From the NCBI RefSeq assembly GCF_000011245.1, contig NC_004193.1, positions 2,706,501 through 2,770,500 of the forward strand: 64,000 nucleotides of DNA, in the 5' to 3' direction. Shown here piece by piece: positions 19,578 through 26,177 of the stretch; the stretch's first letter is position 1, and every line of letters starts with the position of its first letter. Origin of the DNA: Oceanobacillus iheyensis HTE831. GTDB lineage: Bacteria; Bacillota; Bacilli; Bacillales; Amphibacillaceae. Both the position numbers and the translations under genes were made by a program. The notes under the pieces are model-generated. The model was not told the DNA's origin. It made no database searches and worked only from the letters and a program-made list of their open reading frames with translations.

Positions 19578-21641
19578 ATGTCAGATCAAGATAATCAACA
19601 AGAAAAACGAAAACAAGATGACAATAAGAAAATCGATCAATTAAAGAAATTCTATCGGGATAATACTGACAAGATAATGACTACAGATGAAGGGGTAAAG
19701 ATATCCAATGATGAGAATACGTTAAGTGCAGGAGACAGAGGTCCTCAATTATTAGAAGATTTTATGTATCGTGAAAAACTGGCTCACTTCGATCGAGAAC
19801 GTATCCCTGAACGAAACGTTCACGCACGGGGCTATGGTGCACATGGAGTATTTGAATGTTATGAATCTCAATCAGATTTAACGAAGGCACATTTCTTACA
19901 AAAAGCTGGGCAACAAACACCTGTATTTGTCCGATTCTCACAAGTAGCCGGTTCAAAAGGAGCCAATGAAACACTACGTGACGTTCGGGGTTTTGCTACA
20001 AAATTTTATACGAATGAGGGAAATTTTGATTTAGTTGGAAATAATATTCCTATATTTTTCATTCAAGATGGTATTAAGTTTCCAGACTTAATTCACGCAC
20101 TGAAACCTGAACCGAACAATGAAATCCCTCAAGGACAAACAGCGCATGATACATTCTGGGATTTTATCGGTAGTAATGAAGAATCGGCAGCTATGATGAT
20201 GTGGATTATGTCAGATCGGACCATCCCTAGAAGTTTCCGTACTATACAAGGATTCGGAGTACATACATTTCGGCTTGTTAATGCGGAAGGTAAATCCGTC
20301 TTTTGTAAATTTCATTGGCGGCCTGTTCTAGGGATACATTCATTAATTTGGAATGAAGCGCAAAAAATTGGCGGTGCTGATCCTGACTTTCACCGAAGAG
20401 ACCTTTGGGAAAATATTGAACAAGGATTTTATCCAGAATATGAGCTAGGAGTTCAGGTCATCGAGGAAGGGCAAGAATTTGATTTTGATTTCGATATACT
20501 AGATGCAACAAAGCTCTGGCCAGAAGAAGAAGTACCATTACAAATGATTGGAAAAATGACTTTAAATAAAAACGTAGAGAATGTTTTTGCTGAGACTGAA
20601 CAAGTCGCACTACACCCAGGCAACATTGTACCAGGTATTGATTTCACGAATGATCCTCTACTACAAGGAAGGCTATTCTCCTATACGGATACGCAAATTT
20701 ATCGAGTTGGTACTAACTTCAAACAACTTCCTATTAATCGTCCCGTATGCCCTTTTCACAATAATCATCGCGATGGATCTCAACGTTATATTATTGATAA
20801 GGGCCAAGTAGCCTACCATCAGAATTATTTAGCTGGTAATACTCCATACACCGTACCTGGTTCTCAAGGTGGTTTTGTTACGTACCCATCTTTAGTAGAA
20901 GGATTAAAAGTACGAAAAACTGCGCCTAGTTTTCTCGATCACTTCTCACAAGCAAGACTATTTTGGAACAGTATGACAGATGTTGAACAAAGTCATATAC
21001 TTCAAGCATTTAGTTTTGAATTAGGTAAAGTTAATGTTCCAGAGGTACGCCAACGTGTTGTAAATCTTATCGGTCATATAAGCCGACCGCTCGCTACTGC
21101 AGTAGCAGAACAAGTTGGTGTGGAACCACCAGATAAGAGCATAAAACAATCAGATGTCACTAAATCCTCCCCTACTTTAAGTTTAATGAATACAAAATTC
21201 CTTCCTAATACATTAAAAGTTGCTATTATTGTTGGTAATGGATATGGTGGCAACGCTTTAGAATCATTATTAGAATCTTTAAAGGAAGTCGAACTTAAAC
21301 CATATATAATAAGCGAGCGCTTAGGAGAAATAACTGCAGATAATGGTGATACCTTAAATGTAGATGCTACCTTCTTAACAACTTCACCAGTTCTGTACGA
21401 TGGGTTACTTGTTGTTGGTGGAGATCATATCAATGATCAGTTTGCTTATGAAGCTGGCAACTTTATTACTGAGCAATTTAACCATTATAAACCAATTGGA
21501 GGCATGGAAGAAGGTGCTACTTTAATTCAACAGTTAGGAATTGCTAATCGACCAGGAGTGTTCATAAGTCAATCAGGCAGCAGACAATTCACTAGACAAT
21601 TTATAGACGGAATGGCAAAACAACGATTTTGGGATAGATAA
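19578..21641 (+). CDS. katE: Large-subunit catalase (KatE/HPII type)
   Basis: 687 residues, the clade 2 length, with a C-terminal DJ-1/PfpI-like domain (about 545-687; KVAIIVGNGYGGN and the VVGGDHINDQ loop). The catalase core includes the distal-His region ERNVHARGYGAHGVFE, the NIPIFFIQDGIKFPD stretch and the proximal heme Tyr in RLFSYTDTQIYRVGTN. AGGAGGGG stands before ATG. It degrades hydrogen peroxide in the cytoplasm and is often produced in stationary phase or spores. No clear sigma-B promoter was found in front of it. The gene is followed by a terminator and then an ECF sigma gene. Confidence 0.95.
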   Translation: MSDQDNQQEKRKQDDNKKIDQLKKFYRDNTDKIMTTDEGVKISNDENTLSAGDRGPQLLEDFMYREKLAHFDRERIPERNVHARGYGAHGVFECYESQSDLTKAHFLQKAGQQTPVFVRFSQVAGSKGANETLRDVRGFATKFYTNEGNFDLVGNNIPIFFIQDGIKFPDLIHALKPEPNNEIPQGQTAHDTFWDFIGSNEESAAMMMWIMSDRTIPRSFRTIQGFGVHTFRLVNAEGKSVFCKFHWRPVLGIHSLIWNEAQKIGGADPDFHRRDLWENIEQGFYPEYELGVQVIEEGQEFDFDFDILDATKLWPEEEVPLQMIGKMTLNKNVENVFAETEQVALHPGNIVPGIDFTNDPLLQGRLFSYTDTQIYRVGTNFKQLPINRPVCPFHNNHRDGSQRYIIDKGQVAYHQNYLAGNTPYTVPGSQGGFVTYPSLVEGLKVRKTAPSFLDHFSQARLFWNSMTDVEQSHILQAFSFELGKVNVPEVRQRVVNLIGHISRPLATAVAEQVGVEPPDKSIKQSDVTKSSPTLSLMNTKFLPNTLKVAIIVGNGYGGNALESLLESLKEVELKPYIISERLGEITADNGDTLNVDATFLTTSPVLYDGLLVVGGDHINDQFAYEAGNFITEQFNHYKPIGGMEEGATLIQQLGIANRPGVFISQSGSRQFTRQFIDGMAKQRFWDR

Positions 21642-21696: not shown

Positions 21697-21724
21697 TGAT
21701 CCAAAGCATGTAAAATGTCCGTTA
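21697..21724 (+). promoter_or_regulatory. Putative ECF promoter of the sigma/anti-sigma genes
   Basis: TGATCCAA, 15-base spacer, CGTTA. The same two blocks with a 14-base spacer stand before the surface-protein gene at 23811-23837. Autoregulated ECF promoters commonly share such -35 and CGT-type -10 blocks. No experiment supports it yet. Confidence 0.55.
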
Positions 21725-21795
21725 TCTATTTAAACATTTTATATACCTCCTTACTCTATGGTATCTTTAAATCAAACAACTAAAAGGAGAATCAG

Positions 21796-22359
21796 ATGCG
21801 AATAGATGACACACAACTATTTCGGCGTATTCAGGAAAAAGATGAAGAAGCGTTAGAGCAATTATATGATCGCTATGAAAAACTACTCTTTTCATTTTCT
21901 CTTCGAATGACGAACAATGAAACAATCGCAGAAGAGGCTGTTCAAGATGTTTTTACAAAGTTATGGACAAAAAAACTTCCATATAAAAAGGAAAAAGGAA
22001 AGTTCTCTTCTTGGCTACTAACTATTACGAGGAACGCTTGTTTAGATTTAATTAGAAAAACAAAGACAGACAATGTTGAATTCCAAGAAAGAGATAGCTT
22101 AAAAGAAGACAATGAACCTACACCAGAAGAACATGTAGAATGGAATGAAAAAAGACAACAAATCAAATCTGCAATGCAGAGTTTAAATGATGAACAAAAA
22201 GAAATTATCGAATTATTTTATTTTAAAGGATTATCACAATCCAAAATATCTGAAGCATGCAATATACCTTTAGGAACAGTGAAAGGAAGAGTACGATTAG
22301 CGCTAAACCATCTAAACAAACAAATGGAAAATACGAATGAAAGGGGGATTCAATCATGA
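21796..22359 (+). CDS. ECF sigma factor (SigK/SigW-like, RskA-linked)
   Basis: 187 residues. Region 2 includes LEQLYDRYEKLLFSFSLRM and AEEAVQDVFTKLWT, and region 4 includes LNDEQKEIIELFYFKGLSQS with the helix-turn-helix SKISEACNIPLGTVKGRVRLAL. It overlaps the following anti-sigma gene by four bases, an ATGA arrangement that indicates translational coupling. It would direct RNA polymerase to its own promoter and to the surface-protein gene downstream, both of which have matching upstream motifs. The signal it responds to is unknown. Confidence 0.92.
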   Translation: MRIDDTQLFRRIQEKDEEALEQLYDRYEKLLFSFSLRMTNNETIAEEAVQDVFTKLWTKKLPYKKEKGKFSSWLLTITRNACLDLIRKTKTDNVEFQERDSLKEDNEPTPEEHVEWNEKRQQIKSAMQSLNDEQKEIIELFYFKGLSQSKISEACNIPLGTVKGRVRLALNHLNKQMENTNERGIQS

Positions 22360-23117
22360 CAAAGCTTACTTGCGATAATTTAATCGATTATATTAATCAT
22401 CAATTAACCGAAGAAGAAAGAAAATCTTTTGAACAGCATCTTGAAGAATGCGAAGAATGCAAAAGTGAATTAGATGAGCTACAAGAACTAATGGATGATC
22501 TCCCTTATCATAGCAATCCAGAGCCAGTTCCTTCCGATATGAAGCAAAGAGTATTGGCAAATGTTCTAGATAGTGAAAGCTCTATCAATAATAGTAAAAA
22601 TACTGAAGAGGAAGTAAAAAAAGACAAACTTGTGCAAGTGCCAAAAAAGAAGAATAATACCTGGCTTAAGCCTGTATTAGCTGCCGGTCTTACCCTATCA
22701 CTGATTGGGAATGGTGCAGCACTCTATTATATTAATGCTGGATCTACAGAAGAATCTAACCCGCCAATAGATTCAGTAAACCAAATTGCCAATAAATATC
22801 AAATGCAAGCTTCTGAAAATGTGAATGCAAATGCTACAGCATTTTTACTTGACCAAAAAGAGACGCCGACATTGATGATCCAAGCTGATAACCTACCTGA
22901 CCTAACAGGTGATGAAACGTATCAAGTTTGGGTGTTAGAAGGAGAAACACCACATCGAGCAGGAACTTTCACTGTTGATCAAGATGGTACAGGTGCTGTC
23001 ACCCACTCCTTAGAAAATATAGAAGATTATAATTACGACACTATTGCCATCACAAAAGAACCAAATGCAAATAGTCAAACTCCACAAGGAGAAATTATTT
23101 TGCACAGTGCTTTTTAA
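22356..23117 (+). CDS. RskA-type anti-sigma factor
   Basis: 253 residues. The N-terminal zinc-binding anti-sigma domain has H28-x3-C32-x2-C35 (EQHLEECEECKSELDEL). A single transmembrane helix lies at about 103-128 (WLKPVLAAGLTLSLIGNGAALYY), then an extracytoplasmic anti-sigma-K/RskA domain ending with DETYQVWVLEG, AGTFTVDQDGTGAV and ITKEPNANSQTPQGEI. In this family the outer domain senses a signal and the sigma factor is released by proteolysis. It overlaps the sigma gene by four bases. Confidence 0.92.
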   Translation: MTKLTCDNLIDYINHQLTEEERKSFEQHLEECEECKSELDELQELMDDLPYHSNPEPVPSDMKQRVLANVLDSESSINNSKNTEEEVKKDKLVQVPKKKNNTWLKPVLAAGLTLSLIGNGAALYYINAGSTEESNPPIDSVNQIANKYQMQASENVNANATAFLLDQKETPTLMIQADNLPDLTGDETYQVWVLEGETPHRAGTFTVDQDGTGAVTHSLENIEDYNYDTIAITKEPNANSQTPQGEIILHSAF

Positions 23118-23145
23118 AATAACATTTTAATAATATCGTTATTTC

Positions 23146-23278
23146 AAGGTTAGAGGTTGTTGGACAAAAGTATTTACTTAAAAGATATATTGAAATTGAT
23201 AAATGGATAAAACTGATTCATCCATTTATCAATCATCTTTTGAGCAAATCTTATTATTACGTCCATCCCTCTAACCTT
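23146..23278 (+). repeat. Structured intergenic element with GAGGTTG-type arms
   Basis: AAGGTTAGAGG (23146-23156) and CCTCTAACCTT (23268-23278) are perfect inverted ends, followed by TTTT. Inside, ATTGATAAATGGA and TCCATTTATCAAT form a second hairpin. The left arm continues TTGTTGGACAAAAG, similar to elements at 28117 and 44800. It may serve as the terminator of the sigma/anti-sigma transcript. Confidence 0.7.
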
Positions 23279-23410
23279 TTTGTTACTAAAGTCAAGTTAT
23301 TTCATTAAACCAAGATGAATAATAGTTTTATATTACATTTTTAGTTTATAGAATCACTACCATTATTAATATATTTGGTACAATTCGAACATTAATGTTT
23401 ATATTCTTAA

Positions 23411-23679
23411 GTCAATTTCATAATTAAGTATTTGGTTTAGAACCCGAATGCCGTGCTGTTTGATTTCCATTGCAGACGGCGCTTTCCACAGGCACGGCTT
23501 CAACTTACTTGAAAAAGAAGAATCCAATTTCTGCGTGGATCTTCAGCTCGTTGTTCTGACCAGGAGTCGCCGTCTTCCATTCCAATCAAAGCCAAGAATT
23601 TCCTGTAACCTAAGCATTAGTATTTGTTTTCTTTCTAATCATTCGTTTTTTAATGAGACTTGGCAATTATGAAATTAAC
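23411..23679. repeat. MITE-like element, copy 1
   Basis: 269 bp. The ends are GTCAATTTCATAATT and AATTATGAAATTAAC, near-perfect inverted repeats. The interior matches the reverse complement of copy 2 at 33001-33267: ATTTCCATTGCAGACGGCGC, GATCTTCAGCTCG and GTCGCCGTCTTCCATT blocks recur. No transposase is encoded. Confidence 0.85.
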
Positions 23680-23810
23680 ATTGATTTTATATAGAAAATC
23701 GGCGACTTTTTTAGAAACAACAAAAGCTTCCCCCTATAACTCTAGCAAGGGATTTTCTTTTTCAAAAGAGGTTAAATGAAAGTCCTTTTTTAAATTTTTT
23801 TATAAAAAAG

Positions 23811-23837
23811 TGATCCAATCTATCTTTCCTTTCGTTA
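23811..23837 (+). promoter_or_regulatory. Putative ECF promoter of the surface-protein gene
   Basis: TGATCCAA, 14-base spacer, CGTTA. It matches the blocks before the sigma gene (15-base spacer) and lies 35 bases upstream of the start codon. Confidence 0.55.
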
Positions 23838-23871
23838 GCTTAGTAACTAAAGAAAAAGGAGAGGGATTTTC

Positions 23872-25221
23872 ATGAATTGGAAAAAAACAATATCAATCGT
23901 ACCATTAAGCGCAGCATTAGTTTTTTCAGGTACAGCTAATTTTGTTGGTGCACACGAAGGAGAACACAGTGAGGAGCCTACAGTTCAAACAGCAGCAGTA
24001 GACTTACGATCAGATTTAGGTCACTTATTGAGTGAACATGCCTATCTAGCTGTAGAGACCATGAGAAACGGAGCAAATCAATCTGAGGATTTCGAGGCTT
24101 CTGTTAATGCTTTAAGTGGAAACACAGAAGACTTATCCAATGCAATTGCTTCCGTATATGGTGATGAAGCAGGGGAAGCATTTAAAGAGATGTGGAGCGA
24201 CCATATAGGATTTTTTGTTGACTATGTAAATGCAACAGCTGAAAATGATGAAGAAGCAAAACAAGCAGCGTTAGATGAACTCTCACAATATCGTGAAGAC
24301 TTTTCTCAATTCTTAGAAGATGCAACTGGAGAACGTCTTGAAGCTGATTCACTAGCAGAAGGATTACAAATGCACGTAAATCAACTTATTGGAGCATTTG
24401 ATAGTTATATAGAGGAAGATTATGCAACTGCCTACAAACATGAAAGAGAAGCAATTGGTCATATGCATATGGTAGCCAAAGGCCTATCCACAGCTATTTC
24501 CGACCAGTTCCCAGAGGATTTCGATAATACAAAAGCGGCTACGCCTGCTGGAGATTTGCGAGCTGACTTGGGACATCTACTTTCTGAACATGCTGGTCTA
24601 GCTGTAGTTGCTATGCAGAATGGATCAGATGGGGCACCTGATTTTGATGCTGCTGCCAATGCACTGACTTCAAATACAGAAGATTTATCCAAAGCGATTA
24701 GCTCTGTATATGGTGACGAAGCAGGGCAAGCTTTTGAAGAAATGTGGTCAGAACATATAGGATATTTCGTTGATTATGTAAATGCAACAGCTGAAGAAGA
24801 TGAAGCTGCTAAGGAAGAAGCATTAAATAATCTAGAAAATTATAGAGATGAATTCTCTGGATTTATGGAAGAAGCAACTGAAGGGAATGTTCAAGCTGAC
24901 GGTTTAGCGGAAGGATTACAGATGCATGTAGAACAATTAATTGGAGCATTTGATGCCTATGTAGCTGGGGATTATGAAGAAGCATACAGTCAAGCAAGGG
25001 AAGCATATGGGCACATGTATGGTGCAGCTGAATCCCTATCTTCAGGCATCGTAATGCAACATCCTGATATGTTTGCTGCGGATATGCCTTCTGAAATGCC
25101 AAACACTGGACTAGGAACACCTGAAACTCAATCTACTAATGCGCTAATGTGGACAATGGGAGCAATTATTTTAGCTGGAATTGTCGTATTTACAATTCGC
25201 CAAAAATATTCAAAACAATAA
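23872..25221 (+). CDS. Duplicated His-rich wall-anchored surface protein
   Basis: 449 residues. Signal peptide 1-27 (cleavage after FVGA). Two copies of a helical domain of about 170 residues (44-212 and 228-396, offset 184) each contain DLGHLLSEHA, SVYGDEAG, MW-(S)-(D/E)-HIG, VDYVNATAE, LAEGLQMHV, QLIGAFD and GHM. Five His are conserved between copies (H51/235, H56/240, H111/295, H168/352, H197/381), which suggests metal binding in a four-helix bundle. The C-terminus has MPNTG (409-413), a hydrophobic helix (about 425-441) and a basic tail, a sortase sorting signal. I do not recognise the domain. The adjacent sortase gene is the likely partner. Confidence 0.85.
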   Translation: MNWKKTISIVPLSAALVFSGTANFVGAHEGEHSEEPTVQTAAVDLRSDLGHLLSEHAYLAVETMRNGANQSEDFEASVNALSGNTEDLSNAIASVYGDEAGEAFKEMWSDHIGFFVDYVNATAENDEEAKQAALDELSQYREDFSQFLEDATGERLEADSLAEGLQMHVNQLIGAFDSYIEEDYATAYKHEREAIGHMHMVAKGLSTAISDQFPEDFDNTKAATPAGDLRADLGHLLSEHAGLAVVAMQNGSDGAPDFDAAANALTSNTEDLSKAISSVYGDEAGQAFEEMWSEHIGYFVDYVNATAEEDEAAKEEALNNLENYRDEFSGFMEEATEGNVQADGLAEGLQMHVEQLIGAFDAYVAGDYEEAYSQAREAYGHMYGAAESLSSGIVMQHPDMFAADMPSEMPNTGLGTPETQSTNALMWTMGAIILAGIVVFTIRQKYSKQ

Positions 25222-25244
25222 TAGAAATTAAAAGGAGGAATTGG

Positions 25245-25898
25245 ATGTTTCGTCTAATAATCAGTTTTATGTTACTTTTTTTAGTCGCATGTAGCCAAGA
25301 TAATCAATCATCTTCATCTGACAGATCCAGTTCCTCTTCACAACAGGAAAATGATACGTATGTACCATTAGAATATAATACAGATATAAATGATGATGAG
25401 GATGATACTTCCTCCTCATCTATCATTAAAGATAAACAATACAATATAACTCCTAGTGAAATTAATATAGATTCAATCAATGTTTCTTCTTCTGTTGAAA
25501 GTGTTGGTTTATTAGAAAATGGAGAAATGGCTGTCCCAGAGGATTTCACAAAAACCGGTTGGTTTGACTTAGGAACAAACCCTGGAAACCGTGGCAGTGC
25601 AGTTATTGCTGGGCACGTCGATGATAAAACTGGACCAGGAGTCTTTTTTGACCTTGATAAACTTAAAAAAGATGATGAAATTGAGGTTATTGGAGAAGAT
25701 GGGAAGAAATTAACGTTTAAAGTGGTTGACACAGAAGTCTTTCATAAAGATAATGCACCAATTGAAGATATATTTGGCTATACATCTAGAAGGATGTTAA
25801 ATTTAATTACCTGTATTGGAACTTTCGATCATTCTATTGGTGGTAGAACAGAAAGATTAGTCGTGTATACTGAATTAGTTGAAGAAGATATAGAATAA
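25245..25898 (+). CDS. Class F-like sortase with a lipoprotein signal
   Basis: 217 residues, starting at the ATG after AAAGGAGG (the frame is open 96 bases further up). Residues 1-16 end in lipobox LVAC with Cys16, then a long Ser/Asp/Glu-rich linker (17-65). The sortase core has His124 (IAGHVDD), Cys190 (NLITCIG) and Arg201/204 (GGRTERLVVY), and the GWFDLGTNPGNRGSAVIAGH region typical of class F/E-like sortases. It lies 23 bases after the MPNTG protein, so it is probably dedicated to it. Lipid anchoring instead of a transmembrane helix is unusual for sortases. Confidence 0.88.
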   Translation: MFRLIISFMLLFLVACSQDNQSSSSDRSSSSSQQENDTYVPLEYNTDINDDEDDTSSSSIIKDKQYNITPSEINIDSINVSSSVESVGLLENGEMAVPEDFTKTGWFDLGTNPGNRGSAVIAGHVDDKTGPGVFFDLDKLKKDDEIEVIGEDGKKLTFKVVDTEVFHKDNAPIEDIFGYTSRRMLNLITCIGTFDHSIGGRTERLVVYTELVEEDIE

Positions 25899-25922: not shown

Positions 25923-26177
25923 TCTATTCACCATTTTTACTGATTTCTAAAGCTGTTTTGGGTTTTAGAGCCGCTCTATTCACCATTTTTACAGATTTCC
26001 AAAGCTGTTTTGGGTTTTAGAGCTGCTCTATTCACCATTTTCACAGATTTCTAAGGCTGTTTTGGGTTTTAGAGCCGCTCTATTCACCATTTTTACAGAT
26101 TTCCAAAGCTGTTTTGGGTTTTAGAGCTGCTCTATTCACCATTTTCACAGATTTCTAAAGCTGTTTTGGGTTTTAGA
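25923..26177. repeat. 52-bp tandem repeat array, five units
   Basis: TCTATTCACC starts at 25923, 25975, 26027, 26079 and 26131, so the period is exactly 52. Units 2 and 4 are identical; units 3 and 5 form a second subtype, which gives an A-B-A-B pattern with a 104-bp higher-order period. Every unit contains CTGTTTTGGGTTTTAGA. No spacers separate the units, so it is not CRISPR. Confidence 0.93.

Follow-up and report, generated by a model that had tools for sequence, protein, structure and literature searches.

A candidate ECF sigma factor regulon for the cell surface, with a sortase-linked two-domain protein, in Oceanobacillus iheyensis HTE831

We analysed a locus at positions 21697–25898 of a 64,000-nucleotide stretch of the Oceanobacillus iheyensis HTE831 genome (NC_004193.1; one contig of 3.63 Mb), hereafter called the window. 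The locus encodes an extracytoplasmic function (ECF) sigma factor, its RskA-type anti-sigma factor, a surface protein with two His-containing domain copies and a class F-like sortase. We consider it probable that this locus forms the centre of an ECF regulon dedicated to the cell surface, which would include the surface protein, the sortase and an array of micropeptide genes elsewhere in the genome. The evidence is comparative. A promoter motif is kept before the surface gene in nearly all related loci, its variants change together with those before the sigma gene, and the same site is found before sortase genes that lie away from the surface gene.

A promoter motif common to the sigma and surface genes

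A genome scan confirmed 368 loci of the surface-protein family. Promoters and neighbouring genes were counted in the best 80 of them (L010–L089), up to 6 kb on each side, and for promoters the window was added as the 81st locus. In 76 of the 81 loci the surface gene is preceded by the pattern [GA]TGATCCN-N13-17-CGWWW, with a spacer between TGATCC and CG of 16 bases in 74 loci and 17 in two. A first-order Markov model gives a mean of 0.11 loci and a maximum of 1. Among the five loci missed by the pattern, L010, L011 and L087 show variant or misplaced sites by eye, and none is seen in the two Planococcus loci L035 and L053. The same pattern is found before 28/61 sigma, 8/59 sortase and 1/63 RskA genes, and a looser pattern places a site before the sigma gene in 50 of 61 loci. 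The promoter blocks that a preliminary description of the window had noted at both genes are thus confirmed on a larger scale.

The two promoters also covary. In 31 of 49 loci the sigma and surface genes have the same five-base -10 element, while shuffling gives a mean of 16.2 and a maximum of 25 in 10,000 trials, a test that takes related loci as independent. All 10 surface promoters of the CGATA type pair with a sigma promoter of CGATA (eight) or CGATT (two), and none of the other 39 do. Region 2.4 of a sigma factor contacts the -10 element. In our sigma alignment, position 80 is Tyr in 10/10 CGATA loci and in 1/37 CGTTA loci. The excerpted text of PMC8103513 assigns the -10 specificity to the L3 loop. 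Based on these sequence comparisons, the sigma and anti-sigma factors probably control their own promoter and the surface gene.

A related sigma factor is present in 60 of the 80 loci, an RskA protein in 63, a sortase in 58 and all three in 46. Because some of the stretches end at contig ends, absences are upper bounds. In the window the sigma and anti-sigma genes overlap by 4 bases, and the assignment of both as an ECF sigma/RskA pair, made earlier, holds in Pfam and NCBIfam scans. The sortase gene starts 23 bases past the surface-gene stop, also as described. The coordinates are collected in Table 1.

Table 1. Features of the locus (window positions) and of the distant micropeptide array (amino acids, aa)
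Feature	Position	Strand	Basis or remark
Sigma-gene promoter-like site, TGATCC-N17-CGTTA	21697–21724	+	motif match; related sites before sigma genes elsewhere
ECF sigma factor, 187 aa	21796–22359	+	Sigma70_r2 5.5e-17, Sigma70_r4_2 5.7e-12 (Pfam)
RskA-type anti-sigma factor, 253 aa	22356–23117	+	zf-HC2 1.7e-7, RskA_C 4.6e-17 (Pfam); NF052375 109.5 bits, cut-off 100
Surface-gene promoter-like site, TGATCC-N16-CGTTA, then GCT	23811–23837	+	form kept in 76/81 loci
Surface protein, 449 aa, two His-containing domain copies	23872–25221	+	signal peptide-like start by eye; DUF2150, partial, is the only Pfam model over cut-off
Domain copy 1, residues 42–219	23995–24528	+	copy alignment
Domain copy 2, residues 226–403	24547–25080	+	copy alignment
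MPNTG sorting motif, residues 409–413	25096–25110	+	hydrophobic stretch and basic tail after the motif, by eye
Class F-like sortase, 217 aa, ATG at 25245	25245–25898	+	PF04203 1.7e-21 (76.7 bits); lipobox-like LVAC at residues 13–16
Micropeptide array with motif and two ABC (ATP-binding cassette) half-exporters	L093 4885–8843 (G000:C1 from 286884)		far from the window

The catalase gene at 19578–21641 lies beside the locus, as previously described. A catalase match is found in 2/80 loci only, where it is divergent (43% identity) and on the opposite strand, so the suggested oxidative link was dropped.

Two repeats are observed, one within the locus and one just after it. Between the anti-sigma and surface genes there is a dispersed repeat (23412–23680), of which at least 39 copies are present among the 43 matches listed, with 70–92% identity (40 of 165 candidates scored). 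Rfam has no fitting family for it; the one RNA match has an E-value of 0.75 and is far below the gathering score. Directly after the sortase gene a tandem array is found at 25923–26177, with a 52-base unit, 4.9 copies and 93% matches.

The surface protein family and its sortase

The two domain copies of the surface protein share 112 of 178 residues. Five His pairs align between them (51/235, 56/240, 111/295, 168/352 and 197/381), and the claim of five conserved His per copy is correct within the window protein. Across the family the number is three, which are nearly universal, or four. We surveyed 93 domain sequences, namely both copies of 39 two-domain proteins (78), three first copies of tailed relatives and 12 single-domain sequences. 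Among them, His 56/240 is kept in 93, His 111/295 in 92 and His 168/352 in 93, while His 197/381 is kept in 80 and His 51/235 in 45. The helical character of the domain is read solely from hydrophobic periodicity, with a moment at 100 degrees of 0.85 and 0.79 for copies 1 and 2, compared with 0.54 ± 0.07 for shuffled copy 1.

The domain had been called unrecognised. This agrees with the NCBIfam scan, in which no model exceeds its cut-off for the surface protein, and with the solved structures, which give no match at E ≤ 10, but the archaeal PF09920 (DUF2150) does pass the Pfam cut-off in part (32.6 bits, cut-off 28; best stretch 50–112 of 189 profile positions). It is listed for 14 of the best 120 relatives and falls below the cut-off in the longer relative L199. 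DUF2150 was not adopted as the family identity, since the match is partial and not kept across relatives.

The family is widespread. Its profile A2 finds members in 201 of 397 genomes sampled from the order (E ≤ 1e-10, remote members included) and in 63 of 135 genera. Close members (E < 1e-100) are present in 152 of the 201 genomes. The order sample contains three further members of the genus to which the window belongs, and none of them has a match; in a phylum sample 16 of 299 genomes have the family at E ≤ 1e-6. A protein search, in which 7995 candidates were scored, gave at least 516 relatives, and many among the best 120 listed carry the name copper amine oxidase. The system was presented at first as new; because the surface family is widespread and already has a database name, though a wrong one for the window protein, this is not supported. 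No role for the family is described in the literature searched. In longer relatives a C-terminal Cu_amine_oxidN1 domain (L199, 1.4e-29; L219, 8.1e-24) stands where the window protein has its MPxTG signal. Single-domain relatives also exist, at least one of them with LysM (L224).

The C-terminus carries an LPXTG-like motif, after which come a hydrophobic stretch and a basic tail. Among 80 relatives the motif is MPxTG in 75, MPxTA in four and neither in one, and M replaces the L of LPXTG in 79. To be noted, the surface proteins of Salinicoccus sediminis (P0027) and S. albus (L046) stop soon past MPxT. As no clear membrane stretch follows, they may be released or held differently.

For the window sortase the best class model is NF033748 (class F), with 139.7 bits, below its cut-off of 166. 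Catalytic-type His, Cys and Arg residues can be read in AGH, TC and RL contexts. Of the 58 sortases in the 80 loci, 43 start less than 400 bases downstream of the surface gene, 12 lie elsewhere on the same strand and three are encoded on the other strand. In 47 of these 58 the N-terminus fits a strict lipobox pattern. Nine sortases that lie away from the surface gene have a promoter site directly upstream (L018, L019, L021, L026, L028, L030, L038, L041 and L046). In genome G076 the surface gene and a sortase recognised by eye are 833 kb apart on one contig, and the sortase keeps the site (L163, L165). The best evidence for a partnership of sortase and surface protein is that distant sortases carry the same site, and the surface protein's own sortase, as earlier proposed, is thus coupled to it by linkage and, when distant, by the shared motif. 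From this association, the window sortase probably fixes the surface protein to the wall.

Longer sortases and small secreted proteins with the motif (L193 6673–7071, L195 7324–7758, L226 and L228) have in common about 80 C-terminal residues (ERKSYT...YYVTSVD...SEPS). By eye these resemble a fibronectin III fold, with no Pfam model over cut-off.

Motif sites elsewhere and the micropeptide arrays

The strict motif TGATCCRN15CGWTAGCY was scanned in the 397 order genomes. It is present in 113 of them, while the backward-read control is present in 15, eight of which have the surface family. Motif and family occur together in 106 genomes, the motif alone in seven, the family alone in 95 and neither in 189 (Fisher p = 1e-30). 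For close family members the corresponding numbers are 104, 9, 48 and 236 (p = 2e-46). Both p-values overstate the association because the genomes are related.

From the listed sites we chose 40 by hand. Most lie away from surface genes, and all sites of the seven genomes with the motif only are among them. In family-bearing genomes 31 of the 33 chosen sites, all but L225 and L231, are followed by a called gene start at no more than about 210 bases. The first genes encode a surface protein or paralog (10), the first member of a secreted low-complexity pair (6), a sortase (5), a YtkA-like protein (4), a sigma factor (3), a DoxX-like protein (3), a PepSY-like protein (1) and an unclassified product (1). 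These names were given by eye, except for the proteins scanned with Pfam, namely YtkA (L230, L237), the L245 pair, DoxX in L164 and three proteins of the L158 and L166 pairs; L164, L158 and L166 belong to an earlier batch and not to the 40. The seven sites in family-less genomes differ: five have no gene start within 600 bases, one precedes a 39-codon open reading frame and one has a start at +194. The motif is also carried by a CHRD-domain protein with MPQTG (L157, CHRD 8.5e-25). A membrane sensor switching on a single wall protein, as the preliminary description had it, therefore needs correction in the word single, because the motif also stands before paralogs, sortases, micropeptide arrays and further proteins that look exported.

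The secreted pair is found behind the motif in L158, L166, L240, L241, L244, L245, L246 and L253. The first protein mostly ends near YYDQWLNAPPxQPPQ and the second is acidic and repetitive. Pfam scans of five proteins of these pairs gave no model over cut-off.

The nature of some of these targets bears on metal handling at the wall as an alternative. The His domains would bind copper, iron, another metal or heme, the regulon would be one of metal or redox response, and the micropeptides and exporters would be a side branch. This is possible, though in our view doubtful as an account of the whole. The near-universal conservation of three His, single-domain relatives included, fits it. So do the sites elsewhere that precede YtkA-like lipoproteins (PF13115, two tested) and DoxX (one tested), and a looser site before a CopC-CopD gene in genome G094. 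Conserved His residues can also be structural or catalytic, and within the 6 kb reach around the surface genes CopC relatives are found in only 3/80 loci, DoxX in 2/80 and YtkA in 0/80. The CopC/CopD link is accordingly weak.

We return to the cell-surface regulon and its most distant candidate member. In the O. iheyensis genome the third motif site is followed by three open reading frames of 29–30 codons and then by two ABC half-transporter genes. A profile of 19 such peptides has matches in 8/397 order genomes; those in G356 and G414, one each, were rejected, as no array, site or ABC genes are seen there. Arrays are found in eight genomes in total, six from the order sample together with G033 and Lentibacillus jeotgali (L013). 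Two of them, G091 and G287, are of one genus and closely similar. One pattern collects 52 peptide genes: three in O. iheyensis, 11 in G028, four in G033, 10 in G091, seven in G249, four in G263, 10 in G287 and three in L. jeotgali. The peptides have 29 (30 peptides) or 30 residues (21), and one of 48 residues repeats the second half. A Shine-Dalgarno-like sequence precedes 50 of the 52 genes. Pairwise differences fall at third codon positions in 60% of cases, with 3373 synonymous and 2583 non-synonymous codon differences (pairs not independent), and the 19 aligned peptides have the invariant residues D-x-T-Q-x-L-x-x-x-L. The ABC pair is downstream of the array in 8/8 genomes and the other seven pairs are 40–50% identical to the O. 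iheyensis pair; one ABC gene of G091 is split across reading frames. In seven of the eight genomes the array has a motif site no more than about 250 bases upstream. One protein-database search gave only four relatives. Judging from this arrangement, the micropeptides are predicted to be exported and under control of the sigma factor.

Two further observations concern these loci. In G287 (L195 8062–9755) CopD-like and CopC-like genes, named by eye, lie just upstream of the motif site and array. A defence system was considered and rejected, since the padloc matches of the exporter were mainly to ATPases and the surface protein had a single weak match (0.0052).

The runs of 3–11 similar short genes before an ABC pair in every array genome could also encode leaderless antimicrobial or signalling peptides of a competition or defence regulon, in which the ABC pair would serve for export or as an immunity pump. 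The pair does match peptide, lipid and drug exporter models, all below their cut-offs. We find this reading improbable: five of six checked peptides have a charge between -5.5 and -6.5, the peptides are alike across genomes of four families and not diversified, none of the 19 aligned peptides has Cys and only one has a GG pair, and the exporters are without a peptidase domain in Pfam. Similarly little weight is given to arrays that share the motif with no functional tie, the working unit being only the sigma factor, anti-sigma factor, surface protein and sortase. Arrays are indeed present in only 6/201 surface-family genomes, but all six order-sample array genomes have the family, and the site before the array, present three times in G263, speaks for a tie. 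The least tenable alternative takes the name of many relatives, copper amine oxidase, as true of the surface protein; we regard this as very improbable, since Pfam finds no catalytic amine oxidase domain in the window protein, and the name probably came from the relatives with the Cu_amine_oxidN1 tail, itself not the catalytic domain. Judged by its domains, copper amine oxidase is the wrong name for the window protein.

Proposed regulon and relation to known systems

In the cell-surface regulon that we prefer, RskA would keep the sigma factor at the membrane until a signal from outside the cytoplasm frees it, as expected from the two families. Once freed, the sigma factor would transcribe the operon in which it lies and those genes that carry the promoter GTGATCCA-N15/16-CGWTAGCT, for which the comparative support is strong. 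Its targets, which by sequence serve the wall or export, would include the MPxTG protein with its two domains; this protein would leave the cell through Sec and probably be attached to the wall by the lipoprotein-type class F-like sortase encoded next to it, as linkage and motif suggest. In O. iheyensis they would also include the three-micropeptide array and the two ABC half-exporters, with control and export both presumed. The product is most likely an inducible surface layer or display. Metal or cofactor binding by the three or four His of each helical domain is possible and at present a guess. The many marine or salt-loving hosts hint at salt or wall stress as the signal. More specifically, the micropeptides, exported by their own ABC pair, might assemble outside the cell and be held or nucleated by the anchored His-helical protein, which would then be a scaffold and not an enzyme; this arrangement is unlikely.

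Several observations weigh against the regulon. In 20 of the 80 loci no sigma match and in 22 no sortase match is found, partly because of contig ends, and O. iheyensis has two other sortases. In the same genome the anchor model PF00746 does not have the surface protein among its 10 places at E ≤ 1. The loci come from related genera, so that their counts are not independent. Other sigma positions also separate the CGATA and CGTTA groups; the association of CGATA with Tyr80 is therefore partly one of lineage, and the CGATA switch may represent one or few events. The strict motif is missing in 95/201 family genomes and in 48/152 with close members. The own genome has three TGATCCN15-17CGTTA sites, against four in the backward-read control, so this count proves nothing, and the motif search suggested earlier finds its support in the comparison of genomes instead. 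Finally, the arrays are rare, the array site of G263 has only the variant -10 element CGTTATCT, and in G028 the strict site closest to the array lies some 2.5 kb before it, ahead of a surface paralog and a sortase.

A description of a TGATCC/CGWTAG system was not found in the literature searched, where an earlier one could have been missed, nor in the excerpted texts of PMC8103513, PMC5817068, PMC13257024 and PMC4452262. The system appears to be of a known kind apart from the peptide component, which is possibly new. A misnamed family that is present in about half of the sampled order genomes gains, from these comparisons, a candidate regulator with its promoter motif, a sortase as probable partner and candidate co-regulated genes. 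The sortase and substrate with their common motif make a pair suited to the study of class F-like sortases, whose class roles are called inconclusive in the excerpt of PMC13257024. The micropeptide genes are largely missed by annotation, and the promoter motif is a way to find more. A widespread surface system in Bacillus relatives, many of them marine or salt-loving, thus obtains a testable outline.

The window protein belongs to the same two-domain family as the Bacillaceae proteins annotated as copper amine oxidase, and differs from them in having neither the Cu_amine_oxidN1 tail nor an amine oxidase domain. The sigma and anti-sigma genes resemble SigK-RskA pairs (class I anti-sigma factors) in the zf-HC2 and RskA_C domains, the gene order and a motif common to the sigma gene and its targets. 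They differ in the motif, TGATCC/CGWTAG, and in the targets, which are a sortase substrate, a sortase and exported-looking proteins. The first report of class F sortases comes from Cutibacterium acnes, where the signal is LPXTG (excerpt of PMC13257024). The window sortase is like this class in its best model and catalytic-type residues, and unlike it in the score below cut-off, the lipobox-like N-terminus and the adjacent MPxTG substrate. The surface protein has the C-terminal motif, hydrophobic stretch, basic tail and linked sortase of LPXTG proteins with dedicated sortases, whereas M stands for L in nearly the whole family and PF00746 does not match in O. iheyensis. Phenol-soluble modulins, with their Pmt exporter, are short leaderless peptides encoded in several copies together with an ABC exporter. 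Fibres of the Staphylococcus aureus modulins are named in the excerpt of PMC5817068. The micropeptides are likewise short, leaderless, multi-copy and ABC-linked, a likeness seen in gene linkage, and they are distinguished from the modulins by their acidic character, their length of 29–30 residues and a conserved TQ-L core.

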